A stretch of 64,000 nt of DNA from Bacteroidetes bacterium HLUCCA01 (GTDB lineage Bacteria > Bacteroidota > Rhodothermia > Balneolales > HLUCCA01), in the NCBI GenBank assembly GCA_001314545.1, contig LIHN01000001.1:526180-590179 (forward strand), written 5' to 3'. The notes under the pieces were generated by a model that ran no database searches, was not told where the DNA came from, and worked only from the letters and a program-made list of their open reading frames with translations. The translations under genes and the position numbers were made by a program. Positions 39,685 through 48,306 of the stretch are shown here, one piece after another; the first letter of the stretch is position 1; the number at the start of each line of letters is the position of its first letter.

Positions 39685-40941
39685 ATGGATAAACGCACCC
39701 ACTATAAAATATTTACGGATCCCATACACGGTTTTATCACCGTACCCAAGGGCCTGGTTCTCAAGCTGGTGGACCACGCCTATGTACAAAGACTTCGCCG
39801 GATCCGGCAGCTCGGTCTGGGCTATCTGGTTTTCCCCGGGTCCGAGCATTCCCGCTTTTCCCATGCTATCGGGGCGCTGGGCCTTATGCAACGGGCCGTC
39901 AACAGCCTTCGCGAGAAAGACACTACCATCACCCGCGCTGAGCACGAAGCCGTACTGATTGGCATACTGCTGCACGATATTGGACACGGCCCGTTCTCAC
40001 ACACCCTTGAACGGACCATTATCCGTGATTTCCACCATGAAATGATGACCCTGGCACTGATGCGCAGGCTTAATGAGGAGTTTGACGGCGCCCTGAGCAT
40101 GGCGATTGATATTTTTACGGGCCAGTACCCCAAATCCTTTCTGCATCAGCTCATCTCCTCTCAGCTGGACATGGACCGGCTGGACTACCTCAAACGAGAC
40201 AGCATCTACACCGGGGTAAATGAGGGCACCGTCGGCACCGACCGAATCATTAAAACCATGCGTGTTTTTCAGGGGAATGTGGTTATTGAAAGCAAAGGTA
40301 TCTACGCAGTTGAAAATTACATAACCGCCCGACGACTCATGTACATGCAGGTGTATCAGCATAAAACTGTTCTGAGCGCCGACAAACTGCTGGAAGCCAT
40401 TTTCAAAAGGGTCAGGGACCTGCTGGGCGAGGGTATGAACCTCTTTACAGCATCACCCGCGCTGGAATTTTTCCTGAAAAAACAACCTACCGCAAAAAAA
40501 GGACTTACCGCAAGTGTCATCGCTTCCTACCTGGAAATTGATGATAACGACGTACTGCTTTCCATTAAATACTGGCAGAAATCCCGCGACAAAATTCTGG
40601 CTGATCTGTGTCACAGGTTTCTTAACCGCCGTTTTTTCCGCACTACCTTCTCCAAAAAACCAGCAACACCGGCTGCCCGCGATGAACTCACGGAAAAAAC
40701 CCGGGAAGTCCTGAAAAAAAACGGGTTACCGCATAGCGAACGCGATGCAGGCTACTATCTGTTCTTCGACGAACTCATCAACGAGGCCTACCGCTATAAA
40801 AGCGAGGGAATATGGATCCTGCAAGACCCATCCACCGCTGTTGAGTTTTCCCGCGCCAGCGAGACCGGCAATATCAGTGCACTCACAAAAGCCGTTGTCA
40901 AACCCTACAGCGTTCATCTGAAAGAGCTGGACATGGGATGA
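39685..40941 (+). CDS. HD-domain phosphohydrolase (COG1078, SAMHD1/dGTPase-like)
   Basis: A 418-residue protein of the HD family related to dNTP triphosphohydrolases. The start FTDPIHGFITV is diagnostic. R57 and H60 in EHSRFSHAIG, the H97-D98 pair in LLHDIGHGPFSH, and the QLDMDRLDYLKRDS block (160-173) supply the metal-binding H...HD...D set. The family cleaves dNTPs or related nucleotides; substrate is not certain. The ATG is at 39685. The stop overlaps the next gene by 4 bases (ATGA), tying it to the FecR-like gene, an unusual partner. Confidence 0.9.
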   Translation: MDKRTHYKIFTDPIHGFITVPKGLVLKLVDHAYVQRLRRIRQLGLGYLVFPGSEHSRFSHAIGALGLMQRAVNSLREKDTTITRAEHEAVLIGILLHDIGHGPFSHTLERTIIRDFHHEMMTLALMRRLNEEFDGALSMAIDIFTGQYPKSFLHQLISSQLDMDRLDYLKRDSIYTGVNEGTVGTDRIIKTMRVFQGNVVIESKGIYAVENYITARRLMYMQVYQHKTVLSADKLLEAIFKRVRDLLGEGMNLFTASPALEFFLKKQPTAKKGLTASVIASYLEIDDNDVLLSIKYWQKSRDKILADLCHRFLNRRFFRTTFSKKPATPAARDELTEKTREVLKKNGLPHSERDAGYYLFFDELINEAYRYKSEGIWILQDPSTAVEFSRASETGNISALTKAVVKPYSVHLKELDMG

Positions 40942-42176
40942 AACAGGTTGAATACCCCATAGTTCAGATCCTCACAGTCCTCTCTGTGGTGCTGATTGGG
41001 TGGATCATCTACTCCCCCAATCGTTTCTTTACCGAACTACAGGCCGATACCGTTACCGTGCACGCAGTTACCGGCGAAATTGTCCGTGAAAACGGTCAGC
41101 CCGTGCTGCCGGGTCAACCCGTTGAAATCGGTCAGGTACTTACCTCCACGGGAAGTAGTCACGAACTTATACTACAGCTGTCAGAGCGCTCCTTCATGCA
41201 CCTGTACGGCGAATTTCAGCTGGGGTATACCCGGTTGGAGGGATATCGTCTTCCCGTATTCAGTCTGAGTTATGGATGGATCAATGTGAAACGCCATCTC
41301 AACGATTTGCGCGTTGCTGCCGTTCTGCAAACGCCACAGGGTACCGCAGACCTCACGTCAAACCAGTCAGCCCGATTCAGACACCCCTACATTGAACTCT
41401 TCGGGCTGGTAACGCGTGAATCCGTTTCAATGGCCGTTCCCAACGGTCCCGTTACCTGGGAAGAAGAAGCAGGGGCTATCCAAATCCTGTCCGGACAGGT
41501 CTTCCGCAAAGACCACGCACGAAGCACAGTGCAACTGCTGGACACCCCACCTGCCCCGGCCATTGGAAGTCCGGAAGTTGAAGATTTTAATTTTTTACCC
41601 GGCGAGCTGGTCCGTGGTTTTACCATGACCTGGCGTGCCGACTCCCTCACACAGAGCTACCTGGTTCGCATTGAGGAACAATCAACAGCCATACCCGTGC
41701 TGCAACAGAGCGTGGAGAATACCGCATTCAGTGTAAGCGGTCTGGGCGAGGGTGAATTCATGCTGCGCGTTGGCAGCGTTACACAAAATTTCGGCGTAAG
41801 CCGCTGGTCAGACGCCCTGCCTTTCACCGTCAGCGGCCGAAGCGATGAGGATATCCGCTGTACCGACGCTGCTTTTCAGGCCGGATTGGTTACCTCAGGA
41901 AGTCACCGCTTTATGCGGGGTTGTATTCCCCCGGGTGATGCCGTCCATGCTGGCGTCTATGCCAAAGCCGATGTCTGGTACCTCCAGTCTGCGCCGAGCG
42001 GAATAGGCGCTGTTCCCGAACAGGACGGTTACTGGGAGGTAGTGGTGAGTGAAGCCTCAGAATACTATGTTATCGTGATGCCAGACACCTTGCTCTTTGA
42101 GCCGGTTATCCGGGAACTTCAAACCACCGGGGCAGTTTATCATACCCCTGTAACCCAAAGCAACCCAACGCCATGA
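40938..42176 (+). CDS. FecR-like domain protein, membrane anchored
   Basis: A 412-residue protein with one N-terminal membrane segment (about 8-26) and a FecR-like all-beta domain (about 35-175). In that domain HAVTGEIVRENGQPVLPG, IGQVLTSTGSSHELILQL and VLQTPQGTADLTSNQSARF show the typical layout. A second beta-rich part (about 205-305) looks fibronectin-like (YLVRIEEQ, FMLRVGSV, SRWSDALPFTV). In other bacteria FecR domains sense signals in the periplasm, but many stand-alone copies have no known role. It overlaps both neighbours by 4 bases, so HD, FecR-like and TPR/barrel genes are one operon. Confidence 0.75.
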   Translation: MKQVEYPIVQILTVLSVVLIGWIIYSPNRFFTELQADTVTVHAVTGEIVRENGQPVLPGQPVEIGQVLTSTGSSHELILQLSERSFMHLYGEFQLGYTRLEGYRLPVFSLSYGWINVKRHLNDLRVAAVLQTPQGTADLTSNQSARFRHPYIELFGLVTRESVSMAVPNGPVTWEEEAGAIQILSGQVFRKDHARSTVQLLDTPPAPAIGSPEVEDFNFLPGELVRGFTMTWRADSLTQSYLVRIEEQSTAIPVLQQSVENTAFSVSGLGEGEFMLRVGSVTQNFGVSRWSDALPFTVSGRSDEDIRCTDAAFQAGLVTSGSHRFMRGCIPPGDAVHAGVYAKADVWYLQSAPSGIGAVPEQDGYWEVVVSEASEYYVIVMPDTLLFEPVIRELQTTGAVYHTPVTQSNPTP

Positions 42177-43525
42177 GAATTGCTGTGTGCCTGTGCGTAC
42201 TTATCCTGTTTTCAGCTCCGGCGATGTTGCAATCACAACATACCGGCATCCCTTCACCTGAATACGCAGACTCCCTGTTCGAAGCCGGCCAGCACGATCA
42301 GGCCCTCATCGCCTATAATCGTCTGCTTGAAATTGAATCGGATAACTACCTTTATCTATTCCGTGCCGGACTGCTCCATGCATGGACCGGCAGGTACGTC
42401 CGCGCAGAGGAACTCCTGAGCGAACTCTTCGCTCAAAACCCCGCGGACCTGGATGTCGGAACAACACTGATTCGGGTTATCAGTTGGCAAAACCGGTTTG
42501 AAGAGGCCCTCAACATGACGGAAACCCTCCTGTCACAGTCGCCCTTTAATGAAAATCTCCGGGCTCTTCAGGTACAGCTTACCTTCTGGAACGGGCAGCC
42601 CGGCAAAGCAAACCGCATGGCCGATGCCCTGCTTCAGGATTTCCCAAACAACACCACCGCCACACAGGTCAAAGCATCCATTCGACAGTCGATGCAGCCG
42701 CTTTCCATAACTTCGTACGCCCGACCCTGGGATGTTGACAATACCCGGATTCACAGCCTTACGCAGTTTGTACAGTCCGGCATTAGGCCCGGGACCTTTT
42801 TGCACGTTCGTGCCGCGTATTCACTGGCTGAAAACACCTTTACTACACAGGATGCGCGGGTTTGGCAAACCAGTCTGGGTGTACGACAACAGCTGCAGGC
42901 CCACTGGTGGCTGCGCGCAGAGCTGGGCGTATCCGGCAACGATGAACAAACGCTTGGTTTCGCACCTGCAACCTCCGTACAGTTCATACGGGGTGAGGTG
43001 GCCGCAACCCTGGCGCTGGCACGCTACCCGATTACCGACACCCCCCTGCTGATCAGCCAGGCCCTGTATCTGACCGAATCCACATTGGTCGGGAACTATG
43101 CAACGGGTCCTCATGAAATAAACGGACGGATTATCACAGGATGGCTTTCTGATTCAAATCGCCGATTCCTGCTTTCCGGATCCTATGCCTGGCAAACCAG
43201 ATTGGGCAATATGACCTACACGCCGGGATTTGTGGGTGAGTACCGTTCGTTCAGCGCAGCGGGAGCCGGCTACTTTGCACCGGAATGGCAGTACTGGACG
43301 TCTGTCCGGCAGCAGGTTCGCTACGATGAAAATGCACCCTTTTTCGGTGAGCTTACCCTGGATACGGGTCTTCAGCAATTCAAACCCGTTCATCCCCGGC
43401 ATCATTACGTCCAGAATCATCATATCCGGATGCAGAGAACATGCCGCCTCAAACCCGTCAATGCCGTTATTCCTGGTAGTAACATCATATCCCTCCTTGA
43501 TGAGCTTATACTCAACCAGCTTTGA
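42173..43525 (+). CDS. TPR plus outer-membrane beta-barrel protein, 3' end lost at a junction
   Basis: A signal peptide (about 1-22) is followed by TPR-like repeats (about 28-170: ADSLFEAGQHDQALIAYNRL, LFRAGLLHAWTGRYVRAEEL) and a YaiO/PgaA-like beta-barrel region (about 175-403) of alternating aromatic strands ending LTLDTGLQQF. From about residue 404 the frame no longer encodes this protein. The last 48 codons are the exact antisense of a response-regulator gene (HHYVQNHHIRM mirrors HPDMMILDVMMP). I infer the original gene was longer and lost its end near 43360-43385. It may still be translated to the stop at 43525 but probably makes a defective barrel. Confidence 0.7.
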   Translation: MRIAVCLCVLILFSAPAMLQSQHTGIPSPEYADSLFEAGQHDQALIAYNRLLEIESDNYLYLFRAGLLHAWTGRYVRAEELLSELFAQNPADLDVGTTLIRVISWQNRFEEALNMTETLLSQSPFNENLRALQVQLTFWNGQPGKANRMADALLQDFPNNTTATQVKASIRQSMQPLSITSYARPWDVDNTRIHSLTQFVQSGIRPGTFLHVRAAYSLAENTFTTQDARVWQTSLGVRQQLQAHWWLRAELGVSGNDEQTLGFAPATSVQFIRGEVAATLALARYPITDTPLLISQALYLTESTLVGNYATGPHEINGRIITGWLSDSNRRFLLSGSYAWQTRLGNMTYTPGFVGEYRSFSAAGAGYFAPEWQYWTSVRQQVRYDENAPFFGELTLDTGLQQFKPVHPRHHYVQNHHIRMQRTCRLKPVNAVIPGSNIISLLDELILNQL

Positions 43526-43570
43526 TATACTTGGATTGTCCTCTACCAGTAAAATCTTCTGTTTTTCCAA
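43154..43570 (-). pseudogene. Response regulator receiver fragment, truncated at the same junction
   Basis: Only the first 68 codons (43570 down to about 43367) are a receiver domain: KILLVEDNPSISKLVEYKLI and LHPDMMILDVMMPGMNGFELLKT, with phospho-acceptor D54. The second half, which should contain the conserved Thr/Ser and Lys and any output domain, is missing; the frame runs on to 43154 through antisense of the beta-barrel gene. The start is TTG at 43570, with an in-frame stop 15 bases upstream. It would be the third gene after two hybrid kinases on this strand, 62 bp after the nearer one. Confidence 0.8.
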
Positions 43571-43632: not shown

Positions 43633-44778
43633 TTACGTGTCTAACGGCAGCAAGATCATGAACGTACTGCCTTCCCCTTCACGGGAATTAACATCAATAA
43701 CGCCGCTGTGAACTTCAACATAACGTTTGACTATAGGCATACCCAGTCCGGTACCCACCTCCCCGTCCGTTCCGGGTCGCTGATGGTCTCCCATTTTGTC
43801 AAAGAGCCGAGGCAGCATGGTTTCAGGAATACCAATTCCGGTATCCTGGACCTGAATGAATGCAAAACCCGGGAAGTCGTCATTGAGCTCCGTTGAAATT
43901 GTAATGGCTCCCTGTGAGGGAGTGAATTTTATAGCATTCGAAATCAAATTGCCAAATACCTGCGAAATCTTGGATTTATCCAGCATGAGCGGGGGTACAT
44001 CCGGACTGTGATGCAGTTCAAAAGTCACATTTTTATTCTTGGCTGCCGGCGCATGAATGGTCATAACCTCGTTAATCAACGCTCCCAGATCTGTGTGAAC
44101 CCGGTTTAGTTTGATTGAGTTAGACTCGATGATGGCAATATCCAGCATATCATTGACCATGTGGAGCAGCCGTTTTGCAGAAACATCAACAAGTTCCAGC
44201 ATGGTTTCCAGCTCTTCGGGAGAATCAACCGGCTCACTGCGAAGCAGGTCTACAATCCCAATGATTCCACCGAGAGGATTGCGCATGTCATGGCTTAACA
44301 CACTGAGCACTTCATCCTTTTCGTTATTCAGTTTTTGCAGATGTTCCTGCTTTTCCTGAAGCTGGTGAATGTAGGCTTCTTTCTCATGCTGAAGCTCACG
44401 CAGCGACAGATGCAGCTCCATGCGGGCCAATACCTCCTGCTGCTGAAACGGTTTGGTTATGTAGTCTACCCCGCCAGACTCAAACGCCCTTAACTTAGAT
44501 TCAGTATCACTCAGAGCCGACAGAAAAATGACCGGGATTTCATTCCATCGTGGTACCGACTTAAGCTGCCGTGTGGTCTCGAAACCATCCATTTCGGGCA
44601 TCATGACATCCATGAGAATCAGGTCGGGTTCACGGCGCTCCAGCATTTTTAAGGCATCTTTACCATTAAATGCGGCCATAACCGAGTACCCTGCATCCCG
44701 CAGCATCTGCGACAAAACCTGCACATTCTGCTGCGTATCATCGACCACAAGAATAGACTTCTTTTCGGAACTTCCCAT
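43633..44778 (-). CDS. Receiver-histidine kinase hybrid
   Basis: A 381-residue cytosolic signalling protein with the order receiver, coiled coil, HisKA, HATPase. The receiver (about 8-125) has the DD pair in VVDDTQQN, phospho-acceptor D57 in LILMDVMMPEMDG and K109 in DYITKPF. A coiled coil (about 125-155) leads to H163 in VLSHDMRNPLGG. The ATPase shows FGNLISNAIKFTP, VQDTGIGIP and GTGLGMPIVKRY. There is no membrane segment, so its input is probably phosphorylation by an upstream kinase, likely the hybrid kinase 28 bp upstream. The ATG is at 44778. Confidence 0.93.
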   Translation of the reverse strand: MGSSEKKSILVVDDTQQNVQVLSQMLRDAGYSVMAAFNGKDALKMLERREPDLILMDVMMPEMDGFETTRQLKSVPRWNEIPVIFLSALSDTESKLRAFESGGVDYITKPFQQQEVLARMELHLSLRELQHEKEAYIHQLQEKQEHLQKLNNEKDEVLSVLSHDMRNPLGGIIGIVDLLRSEPVDSPEELETMLELVDVSAKRLLHMVNDMLDIAIIESNSIKLNRVHTDLGALINEVMTIHAPAAKNKNVTFELHHSPDVPPLMLDKSKISQVFGNLISNAIKFTPSQGAITISTELNDDFPGFAFIQVQDTGIGIPETMLPRLFDKMGDHQRPGTDGEVGTGLGMPIVKRYVEVHSGVIDVNSREGEGSTFMILLPLDT

Positions 44779-44806: not shown

Positions 44807-47770
44807 TCATGCGTTCAATAGCCGCTTTGCTACATTGGACATTAAAAACAAATCGAAATCACGAACTACTTTGTCGATGAGTACTTTAAGCGCCTCGTAC
44901 TGACCTTCCCCAAGGTGATTATCGGCAAAATCGCTCAAACCATCAACATCCTGTATTACCAGTAGGTCGGTGATTATCTGACGGAGTTCTTCAGGCAGAG
45001 CCTCTACATGACGCACCAGCGCAGTGGTATCATCTTCCGGCACGCTGATATCGCCACCATCAGAAAGTACCTCTTTATATTCAAAAGTTACACCGGCATT
45101 TACATGAAGTGACCGGAGTAAATCGGGTTCCTTGAAGGGTTTCAGGATATAATCCGTAAAACCGGCTTTAATAAGTGCATCACGTTTGTCGTCAAATCCA
45201 CTGGCGGTGAGCGCAATGACCGCTACCGTTTTGCCCCGGGGCATTTTCCGGATTAACGACATAGCCTTCACACCGTCCATGACAGGCATGATAATATCCA
45301 TTATGACAACATCAAATTCTTGCCGGGAGAACAAATCAACAGCCTGCTGCCCGTCAGCCGCCTCGGATATGCTGGCACCAACACGCTCCAGCAGCAGACG
45401 AACTACCGTCCGGTTCAGGTCTACATCGTCAACCACAAGCACACGAAACGGCCTGGGAGAGGCAATCGTTTTTACGCGTGTGAACTTGTCGGCTTTTTTA
45501 CCGGTAGGATGTTCTACAATTTGCATTGGCACCGCAAAACCGAATAAAGCGCCCTGACCGAGTACACTTCGGACGGTGACATCCCCGCCCATGAGATTAA
45601 CTATCCGTTTCGTTATAGCCAGCCCCAGACCGGTTCCCTTGATATCCGAGTTCTTAGCCTGCTGAAACGGTTCAAATACCAGATGGAGGTCGTCTTCGGG
45701 TATGCCCCTTCCCGTATCTTCCACCTCCACGCTTATAAGTTGATCACGGGTACCGGTTGATGTGTTGTCAGTGAGTGAAAAACGAACCGAGACATGACCC
45801 TGATCGGTAAATTTCACGGCATTACCAATCAAGTTTATAAGAACTTGTGAAAATTTGGACTGATCGATCTGTACAGCAGGATTAATTTCAGGATCCACGG
45901 ACACCCGCAGGTCGACCCCTTTTGATGCTGCTTTCAGCCGAAACATTTCCACCACATCCCGGATGATTTCGTGGAGATCTGCCGGTTCGTTTTGAAGTTC
46001 CATTCTGGAGGCTTCAATCTTGGAAATATCCAGAATGTCGTTGATCATCGTGAGCAGGTGGTTACCACTTCGGTACATATTGTCTACATATCCGCGGTGA
46101 ACCTCGCTGACGGTCGGGTCGTTGGTCATAATCTGCGCATAGCCCAGTATGGCATTGAGCGGCGTGCGCAGTTCATGGGTAATCCGGGCCAGAAAAGCCG
46201 ACTTAGCCTGATTGGCGTCTTCGGCCGCTTTTCGGGCACTGACCAGCTCATCAATTCGCTCAGCTACCAAAATAACACCGTTGCGGGAACCATCTTCATT
46301 TCCCCAGGGATGAATGGCCAGACGCAGGTAGATCACATTATGTTCGTCCAGACGAAGCTCTTCCTCAGCGATATGCAGAACCTCTCCCTGAAGGCCCCGA
46401 TAGCATAAGTCCTGCCAGTGCGAGGGGAGCTTCTGGTAGATTTCAAAGAGCTTTTTACCGGTAAGTTTGATCCGGCCCGGTCCGTACGACTGCACCCAGG
46501 TTTTGCTGTAAACCACGAATCGCAGGTCGTGATCAAGGATTGCCATAGGCACCGGAGCGTTGTTAACCACTTCCCCCAGCAGCTCCCGTTCACTGTCGAG
46601 CTGTTTTTTGATCTCCATCTGTGTGGTCACATCCCTGGCAACAACAAAAATAATTTCCTGATCGCGCTGAACAATTCTGTTGGCTGTAATTTCAACGGTT
46701 AATCGCATCCCGTCTTTACACCTCCAGGTGCGCCGGTCAAGAACACTCTCACCGTCTTCGATGACACGATCGATGTAGGCCGTAATATCCTGCATGGAGT
46801 GATCCACAAAATCGGCCATTTTCAGATTAAGTGCCTCATCGCGTGTGTAGCCCAGCAGCCTGCAGAACGCTTCATTTACGTCTGTGATAGCATACGTAGC
46901 CGGATTCATCATGTAAATGGCTTCAACAGAACTTTGGATGGCGGTGCGATAGCGTTCTTCGGAGTCGCGGTAGGCCTGTTCGGCGAGTTTACGCTCGGTA
47001 ACATCGGTTATAATACCATCTATGCGAGGATTCTGTGGATCGGATACTACCCAGGCACGATCGCGCAGCCATTTGATATCACCTTTGGGGGTAATGAGCC
47101 GATATTCGGCCTCAGCATACCCCTTTTTACGAAGCTCATGGGTAGCCATCTCCAGTTTATGCAAATCACCACCATGAACCATTTTCTTCCAGGAGACCGT
47201 TTTATTGCGGAAATCCTCCTCATTCATGTCAAATACCAGGCGCGTTGCCTTGTTGACATACAGAATATCACGGGTTCTGGAGTCCATGGAATACACCACA
47301 TCATCAATGCTGGATAATACCGCATCCAGTCTGACTTCTGCGGCAGCAAGGGTATTCTCAATGACGATGCGCTCGGAAATGTCCCGGAGTTGTACCAGTT
47401 TCACCTGTCCGCCGGAAGCGGCGTCTGGCATCAGAGAAATATGCTCGGAAATATAGATGCCCGATCCATCCTCGCAGATATGCTCGGCATCTGTGCCGGA
47501 AGTCAGTTGCCAGTTACCCGATTTCCCACGGTCTTTAGGTGCCAGCAGTATATCGGCATGCTGACCCAGAACCGAATCCGGCTTATACCCATACAGTTTG
47601 GTGAAGGAAGGGTTTGCAAATAACACACGATTTTCATCATCCAGCAAAAGAACCGCATCTTGCAGATGTGCAACAATGCCCGATAGAAGATGTGTATGAT
47701 TTTTACTCAGAGCCACGAATTCGGATTTCAGAAGAGTTAAGCTACTGTGCCTGCCAGCAATCAGGCGCAC
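44807..47770 (-). CDS. Multi-PAS hybrid histidine kinase
   Basis: A 987-residue cytosolic kinase with no clear membrane helix. Four PAS units are visible: about 30-135 (AVLLLDDENRVLFANPSFTKLYGY), 145-260, 270-385 and 400-505. HisKA follows with H532 in ARITHELRTPLNAILGY, then HATPase with LINLIGNAVKFT, VEDTGRGIP and GTGLGLAITKR. A receiver has phospho-acceptor D825 in VVIMDIIMPVMDG and the lysine in DYILKPF, and a roughly 65-residue helical tail closes the protein. The GTG at 47770 is the longest start; others downstream are possible. It lies 28 bp from the next kinase gene, suggesting a phosphorelay. Confidence 0.9.
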   Translation of the reverse strand: MRLIAGRHSSLTLLKSEFVALSKNHTHLLSGIVAHLQDAVLLLDDENRVLFANPSFTKLYGYKPDSVLGQHADILLAPKDRGKSGNWQLTSGTDAEHICEDGSGIYISEHISLMPDAASGGQVKLVQLRDISERIVIENTLAAAEVRLDAVLSSIDDVVYSMDSRTRDILYVNKATRLVFDMNEEDFRNKTVSWKKMVHGGDLHKLEMATHELRKKGYAEAEYRLITPKGDIKWLRDRAWVVSDPQNPRIDGIITDVTERKLAEQAYRDSEERYRTAIQSSVEAIYMMNPATYAITDVNEAFCRLLGYTRDEALNLKMADFVDHSMQDITAYIDRVIEDGESVLDRRTWRCKDGMRLTVEITANRIVQRDQEIIFVVARDVTTQMEIKKQLDSERELLGEVVNNAPVPMAILDHDLRFVVYSKTWVQSYGPGRIKLTGKKLFEIYQKLPSHWQDLCYRGLQGEVLHIAEEELRLDEHNVIYLRLAIHPWGNEDGSRNGVILVAERIDELVSARKAAEDANQAKSAFLARITHELRTPLNAILGYAQIMTNDPTVSEVHRGYVDNMYRSGNHLLTMINDILDISKIEASRMELQNEPADLHEIIRDVVEMFRLKAASKGVDLRVSVDPEINPAVQIDQSKFSQVLINLIGNAVKFTDQGHVSVRFSLTDNTSTGTRDQLISVEVEDTGRGIPEDDLHLVFEPFQQAKNSDIKGTGLGLAITKRIVNLMGGDVTVRSVLGQGALFGFAVPMQIVEHPTGKKADKFTRVKTIASPRPFRVLVVDDVDLNRTVVRLLLERVGASISEAADGQQAVDLFSRQEFDVVIMDIIMPVMDGVKAMSLIRKMPRGKTVAVIALTASGFDDKRDALIKAGFTDYILKPFKEPDLLRSLHVNAGVTFEYKEVLSDGGDISVPEDDTTALVRHVEALPEELRQIITDLLVIQDVDGLSDFADNHLGEGQYEALKVLIDKVVRDFDLFLMSNVAKRLLNA

Positions 47771-47838
47771 AGCAAATTAACTATAAAAAGCTTAATCTTT
47801 CGTGTTAATACCCCCGGACAGACCGATTGAACAACAAT

Positions 47839-48306
47839 TTAACTGCGTTTATATTCCAAAAAGGTGTACCCCTCGTGAATCTCCCGTGCCTGCTCAACCC
47901 ACACTGAACCAAGTTGATGACGATATTCCGGAAAAAAAACATCTCCATCGTGCATGCCCTCAACCAGGGTGACGTACATATAGGTGCAGTTCTCCAGTAA
48001 TTGCCTGTAAATTTCGCCTCCGCCTATTACAAAGACCTTATCCTCTTCCTTCAATGCCTGAAGGGCTTTGTCAATGGCATCATAGCACTCAATACCGGGA
48101 TAATGGCCTGACGTAAGGACAACGTTTCGCCGATTGGGAAGCGGTTTACGACCAATTTCTTCAAAAACTTTCCGTCCCATGAGAATTGGATATCCTGTGG
48201 TCACCCGCTTGAAATGACGCAGGTCTTCAGGAATGTGCCAGGGCAGACCGCCATCCCGGCCTATGAGCAGATTTTCGTCATGTGCTACGATGGCAATAAG
48301 CTGCAT
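47839..48306 (-). CDS. folA: Dihydrofolate reductase
   Basis: Reduces dihydrofolate to tetrahydrofolate with NADPH, regenerating the cofactor consumed by thymidylate synthase. The 155 residues carry LIGRDGGLPWHIPEDLRHFK, where the W-x-x-x-x-D motif holds the active-site acid. PILMGRKVFEEIG, NVVLTSG and KVFVIGGGEIYRQLL follow, all standard for type I DHFR. Its ATG overlaps the thyA stop by one base (TAATG), so the pair is translationally coupled. Confidence 0.97.
   Translation of the reverse strand: MQLIAIVAHDENLLIGRDGGLPWHIPEDLRHFKRVTTGYPILMGRKVFEEIGRKPLPNRRNVVLTSGHYPGIECYDAIDKALQALKEEDKVFVIGGGEIYRQLLENCTYMYVTLVEGMHDGDVFFPEYRHQLGSVWVEQAREIHEGYTFLEYKRS

Follow-up and report, generated by a model that had tools for sequence, protein, structure and literature searches.

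In a polysaccharide locus, two convergent genes have very probably been fused by a single deletion of about 4.05–4.1 kb, whose junction lies at positions 43370–43384 of the window (the whole 64-kb stretch of Bacteroidetes bacterium HLUCCA01 DNA that was analysed, on which all positions below are given). This is an ordinary gene-killing deletion, not a new kind of element, and this one event explains two odd open reading frames that overlap on opposite strands.

The plus-strand frame (42173–43525) encodes a signal peptide, TPR and an outer-membrane β-barrel up to residue F403 (position 43381), and is antisense to a receiver gene beyond. Its native part (42173–43381, 403 residues, with TPR Pfam matches) was aligned with four full-length homologues from the same family, all of which run on for about 64–75 residues after the equivalent QQF/QQY/QQI motif; the protein of G002, a genome of the same genus, has 485 residues. 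The window barrel lacks its last 64 residues or so, and 43382–43525 codes for a chimeric tail instead. PDB matches to the TPR part include the protein PA4667 and other TPR proteins. A barrel deprived of its final strands would presumably not assemble.

The minus-strand frame (43154–43570) encodes a receiver for about 67–68 residues and is antisense to the barrel gene thereafter. The native 5' part of this receiver-only response regulator gene (43370–43570) accounts for these 67–68 of approximately 123 residues: the Pfam domain Response_reg is matched over positions 1–66 of 111, compared with 1–110 in the G002 orthologue, and the alignment with the latter (69% identity over its residues 1–67) ends at residue 67 of 123. 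The last 55 or so residues are gone, and 43154–43369 encodes the chimeric tail. The second half of the G002 receiver, read directly, holds a conserved Thr (in LTSK) and a conserved Lys (in GKPF); both are lost in the window, so that the remnant would presumably not function as a receiver. The first-pass annotation had described the plus-strand frame as a TPR/barrel protein to about residue 403 followed by receiver antisense, and the minus-strand frame as a normal receiver for 68 residues followed by barrel antisense, which the above confirms; the interval where it placed both breaks, 43360–43385, is also correct and has been slightly narrowed. The receiver remnant also holds, near the junction, a 17-nt imperfect direct repeat (82%; 43380–43396 and 43449–43465), which probably consists of two similar GFE-type codon runs.

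What lies between the two genes when they are whole is seen in the relatives. Of the 40 related genomes that were searched, four, all from the same family, have clear barrel homologues, and these four also carry the adjacent kinase. In G002, the order on one strand is multi-PAS hybrid histidine kinase (PAS-HK), receiver-histidine kinase, receiver (123 residues), HEAT-repeat protein (365 residues) and PgaC-like family-2 glycosyltransferase (GT2, 862 residues), and these genes converge with barrel, companion and HD-domain genes on the other strand. The order is identical in G004, from the same family, where the barrel and receiver genes are whole and convergent too. In G001 and G003, the pieces of the locus are split over contigs, whose ends agree with the order in G002: in G001, the GT2 gene runs near the end of contig C8, and this end repeats the start of C154, which carries the barrel, while contig C284 of G003 carries the barrel, GT2 and the end of the HEAT gene. 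The earlier proposal that a deletion had joined two convergent genes, removing both 3' ends and the DNA between them, is therefore supported, the intervening DNA being the two complete HEAT and GT2 genes.

Both of these genes are present in all four other members of the family. In the whole genome to which the window belongs (98% complete, 22 contigs), GT2 has no match at E ≤ 1e-5 and HEAT has no match at E ≤ 0.001. The lost end of the barrel has no match elsewhere in this genome either, a weak negative for such a short and divergent query. A translocation or an inversion that relocated these 4 kb within the genome would also cut both genes at one point, but the lack of matches to GT2, HEAT and the barrel end makes it very improbable.

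Orthologues of the sizeable window genes follow one another in the same order in G002 (C13:281846–350291). The running offset between the two sequences changes by −4,090 bp at 43370 and, where the PAS-HK gene begins, by −356 bp, all other steps being of about 150 bp at most; the large step corresponds to about 4.05–4.1 kb, and apart from these steps the window is collinear with G002 over its 64 kb. A random misjoin of two unrelated loci would also cut two genes at a single point. However, the pieces that are joined here correspond to both ends of a single ancestral locus and keep their expected order and orientation, and the collinearity with G002 runs on at both sides, which leaves almost no room for such a misjoin.

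At the junction itself (43370–43384, CTTCAGCAATTCAAA), the native stretches of the barrel and receiver genes overlap, by nine bases that are firm (43373–43381) and by fifteen at the maximum. The fifteen bases encode LQQFK when read in the barrel frame and FELLK in that of the receiver, where G002 has FELLE; the core of nine fits both genes, QQF on the plus strand and ELL on the minus strand, and is a candidate short direct repeat. The motif G-x-Q-Q is invariant in the five barrel homologues. The two sites of G002 that are equivalent to the breakpoints match at 8 of 12 bases, a score that 0.33% of all site pairs reach, and those of G004 match at 7 of 12 bases, as do 2.2% of the pairs or better. 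The support that these matches give to a short repeat is soft and is no proof, since the antisense of FELL often encodes QQF. Neither inverted repeats nor tRNAs were found at the junction, hence there is no sign of an integrated element.

Spontaneous deletions between short direct repeats arise in bacteria by RecA-independent slippage or annealing. The present case shares with them the clean loss of a few kb at once and a short junction stretch that fits both sides; it differs from them in that the original repeats are deduced from related genomes and from proteins instead of being read in a parent sequence. The deletion would have taken place in vivo and probably involved slippage or annealing at direct repeats of 9–15 bp, one located in the QQF codons of the barrel gene and the other antisense to the FELL codons of the receiver gene; it would have taken GT2 and HEAT whole, together with the 3' ends of the barrel and receiver genes.

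Another hypothesis, which the first-pass annotation had already named as its main alternative in the form of an assembly join, is that the 4 kb are present in the organism and that the junction results from a local assembly collapse, a strain-mixture consensus or an amplification chimera, the small contig that carries them having been left out. The assembly comprises 22 contigs and may, like those of its close relatives, be a metagenome bin, which is compatible with this idea. On the contrary, the join falls within 9–15 bp of shared sequence, and usual assembly overlaps are longer than that; the 64 kb contain no N letters and no other disturbance of about 4 kb in size; and none of the 22 contigs carries GT2 or HEAT. 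We consider such an artefact to be unlikely.

The age of the event bears on the same question. We looked for accelerated decay of the remnants and did not see it: they evolve no faster than in the relatives, since for the barrel, receiver and kinase remnants the amino-acid and nonsynonymous distances do not exceed those between G001 and G002 (synonymous sites are saturated, so that selection ratios are unusable). The absence of decay implies that the event is recent on this scale, or else that it is an artefact of assembly or of strain mixture, any of which would give this result.

Regarding the neighbouring genes, the HD-domain protein gene on the side of the barrel (39685–40941, plus strand; Pfam HD) is intact and is 82% identical to that of G002. 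HD homologues are found in many Balneolales, and among those loci the barrel adjoins HD only in G002, G001 and G004, in a scan of genome contigs that may have left out the window's own records. The conserved companion gene 5' of the barrel (40938–42176, plus strand) has syntenic orthologues in the same three genomes; a Pfam search with it gave no match, and "FecR-like" is a label given by eye.

On the other side, upstream of the cut receiver, the receiver-histidine kinase gene (43633–44778, minus strand) is intact, while the PAS-HK gene (44807–47770, minus strand) lacks the N-terminal 118 or so residues of its orthologues. The N-terminal receiver-like domain is kept in G001, G002, G003 and G004 and is absent in the window (47700–47840), which makes a second loss, of about 0.36 kb, within the same cluster as the deletion of about 4 kb. 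This second loss fits with relaxed selection on the locus. Ahead of the PAS-HK gene, G001, G003 and G004 carry a GAF-like gene (L143 from 1365 onward, L144 from 5579 onward and L021 16946–18145), which is absent in G002 and in the window.

The sequences indicate that the locus is a synthase-dependent exopolysaccharide locus. As in the systems based on PgaA and PgaC, the export porin and the synthase of poly-β-1,6-GlcNAc, a GT2 synthase adjoins a TPR/outer-membrane barrel; unlike in these systems, they are accompanied by kinases, a lone receiver and a HEAT protein. The best NCBIfam match of the lost GT2 is PgaC_IcaA, with 147.7 bits, far below the equivalog cut-off of 422.3, and its resemblance to cellulose synthase is weaker. 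That of the barrel is PgaA, with 41.4 bits for the G002 protein and 31.2 bits for the window remnant, again far below the cut-off of 366.65. Judged by these scores, this putative exopolysaccharide locus is not a Pga member. The module may have made and exported an exopolysaccharide by means of a PgaC/BcsA-like synthase and a PgaA-like TPR-barrel exporter, under the control of the kinases and the receiver. Since the synthase, the last barrel strands and half of the receiver are lost, the module would be without function, and the locus is most likely dead in the window genome.

Last, we note that the receiver, HEAT and PgaC-like GT2 genes are also adjacent in other families of the order (G013 C1, G016 C1, G006 C5, G010 C11, G011 C10 and G020 C325), which means that this module is conserved beyond the genus. 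A literature search retrieved no paper on such a module, judging by titles. In G001, the PAS-HK, histidine kinase and receiver genes have one in-frame stop each (TGA, TAA and TAG; L143 3530 and 6328, and L054 at the receiver codon FE*L), whereas the reading frames of HEAT, GT2, barrel and HD are uninterrupted. We set aside a parallel inactivation in G001, because the same assembly seems, by eye, to hold stops in other conserved genes. We tentatively raise the possibility that the Balneolales have a conserved, apparently undescribed exopolysaccharide module whose PgaC-like synthase would be controlled through protein contact, and not at the level of transcription, by a lone receiver and a membrane HEAT-repeat protein encoded directly before it, and that this genus may be losing the module (by large deletions here, by in-frame stops in three regulator genes in G001).

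The minus-strand frame should not be annotated as a short receiver, nor the plus-strand frame as a short barrel protein: what the window very probably holds is a natural knock-out of a conserved receiver–HEAT–glycosyltransferase module.
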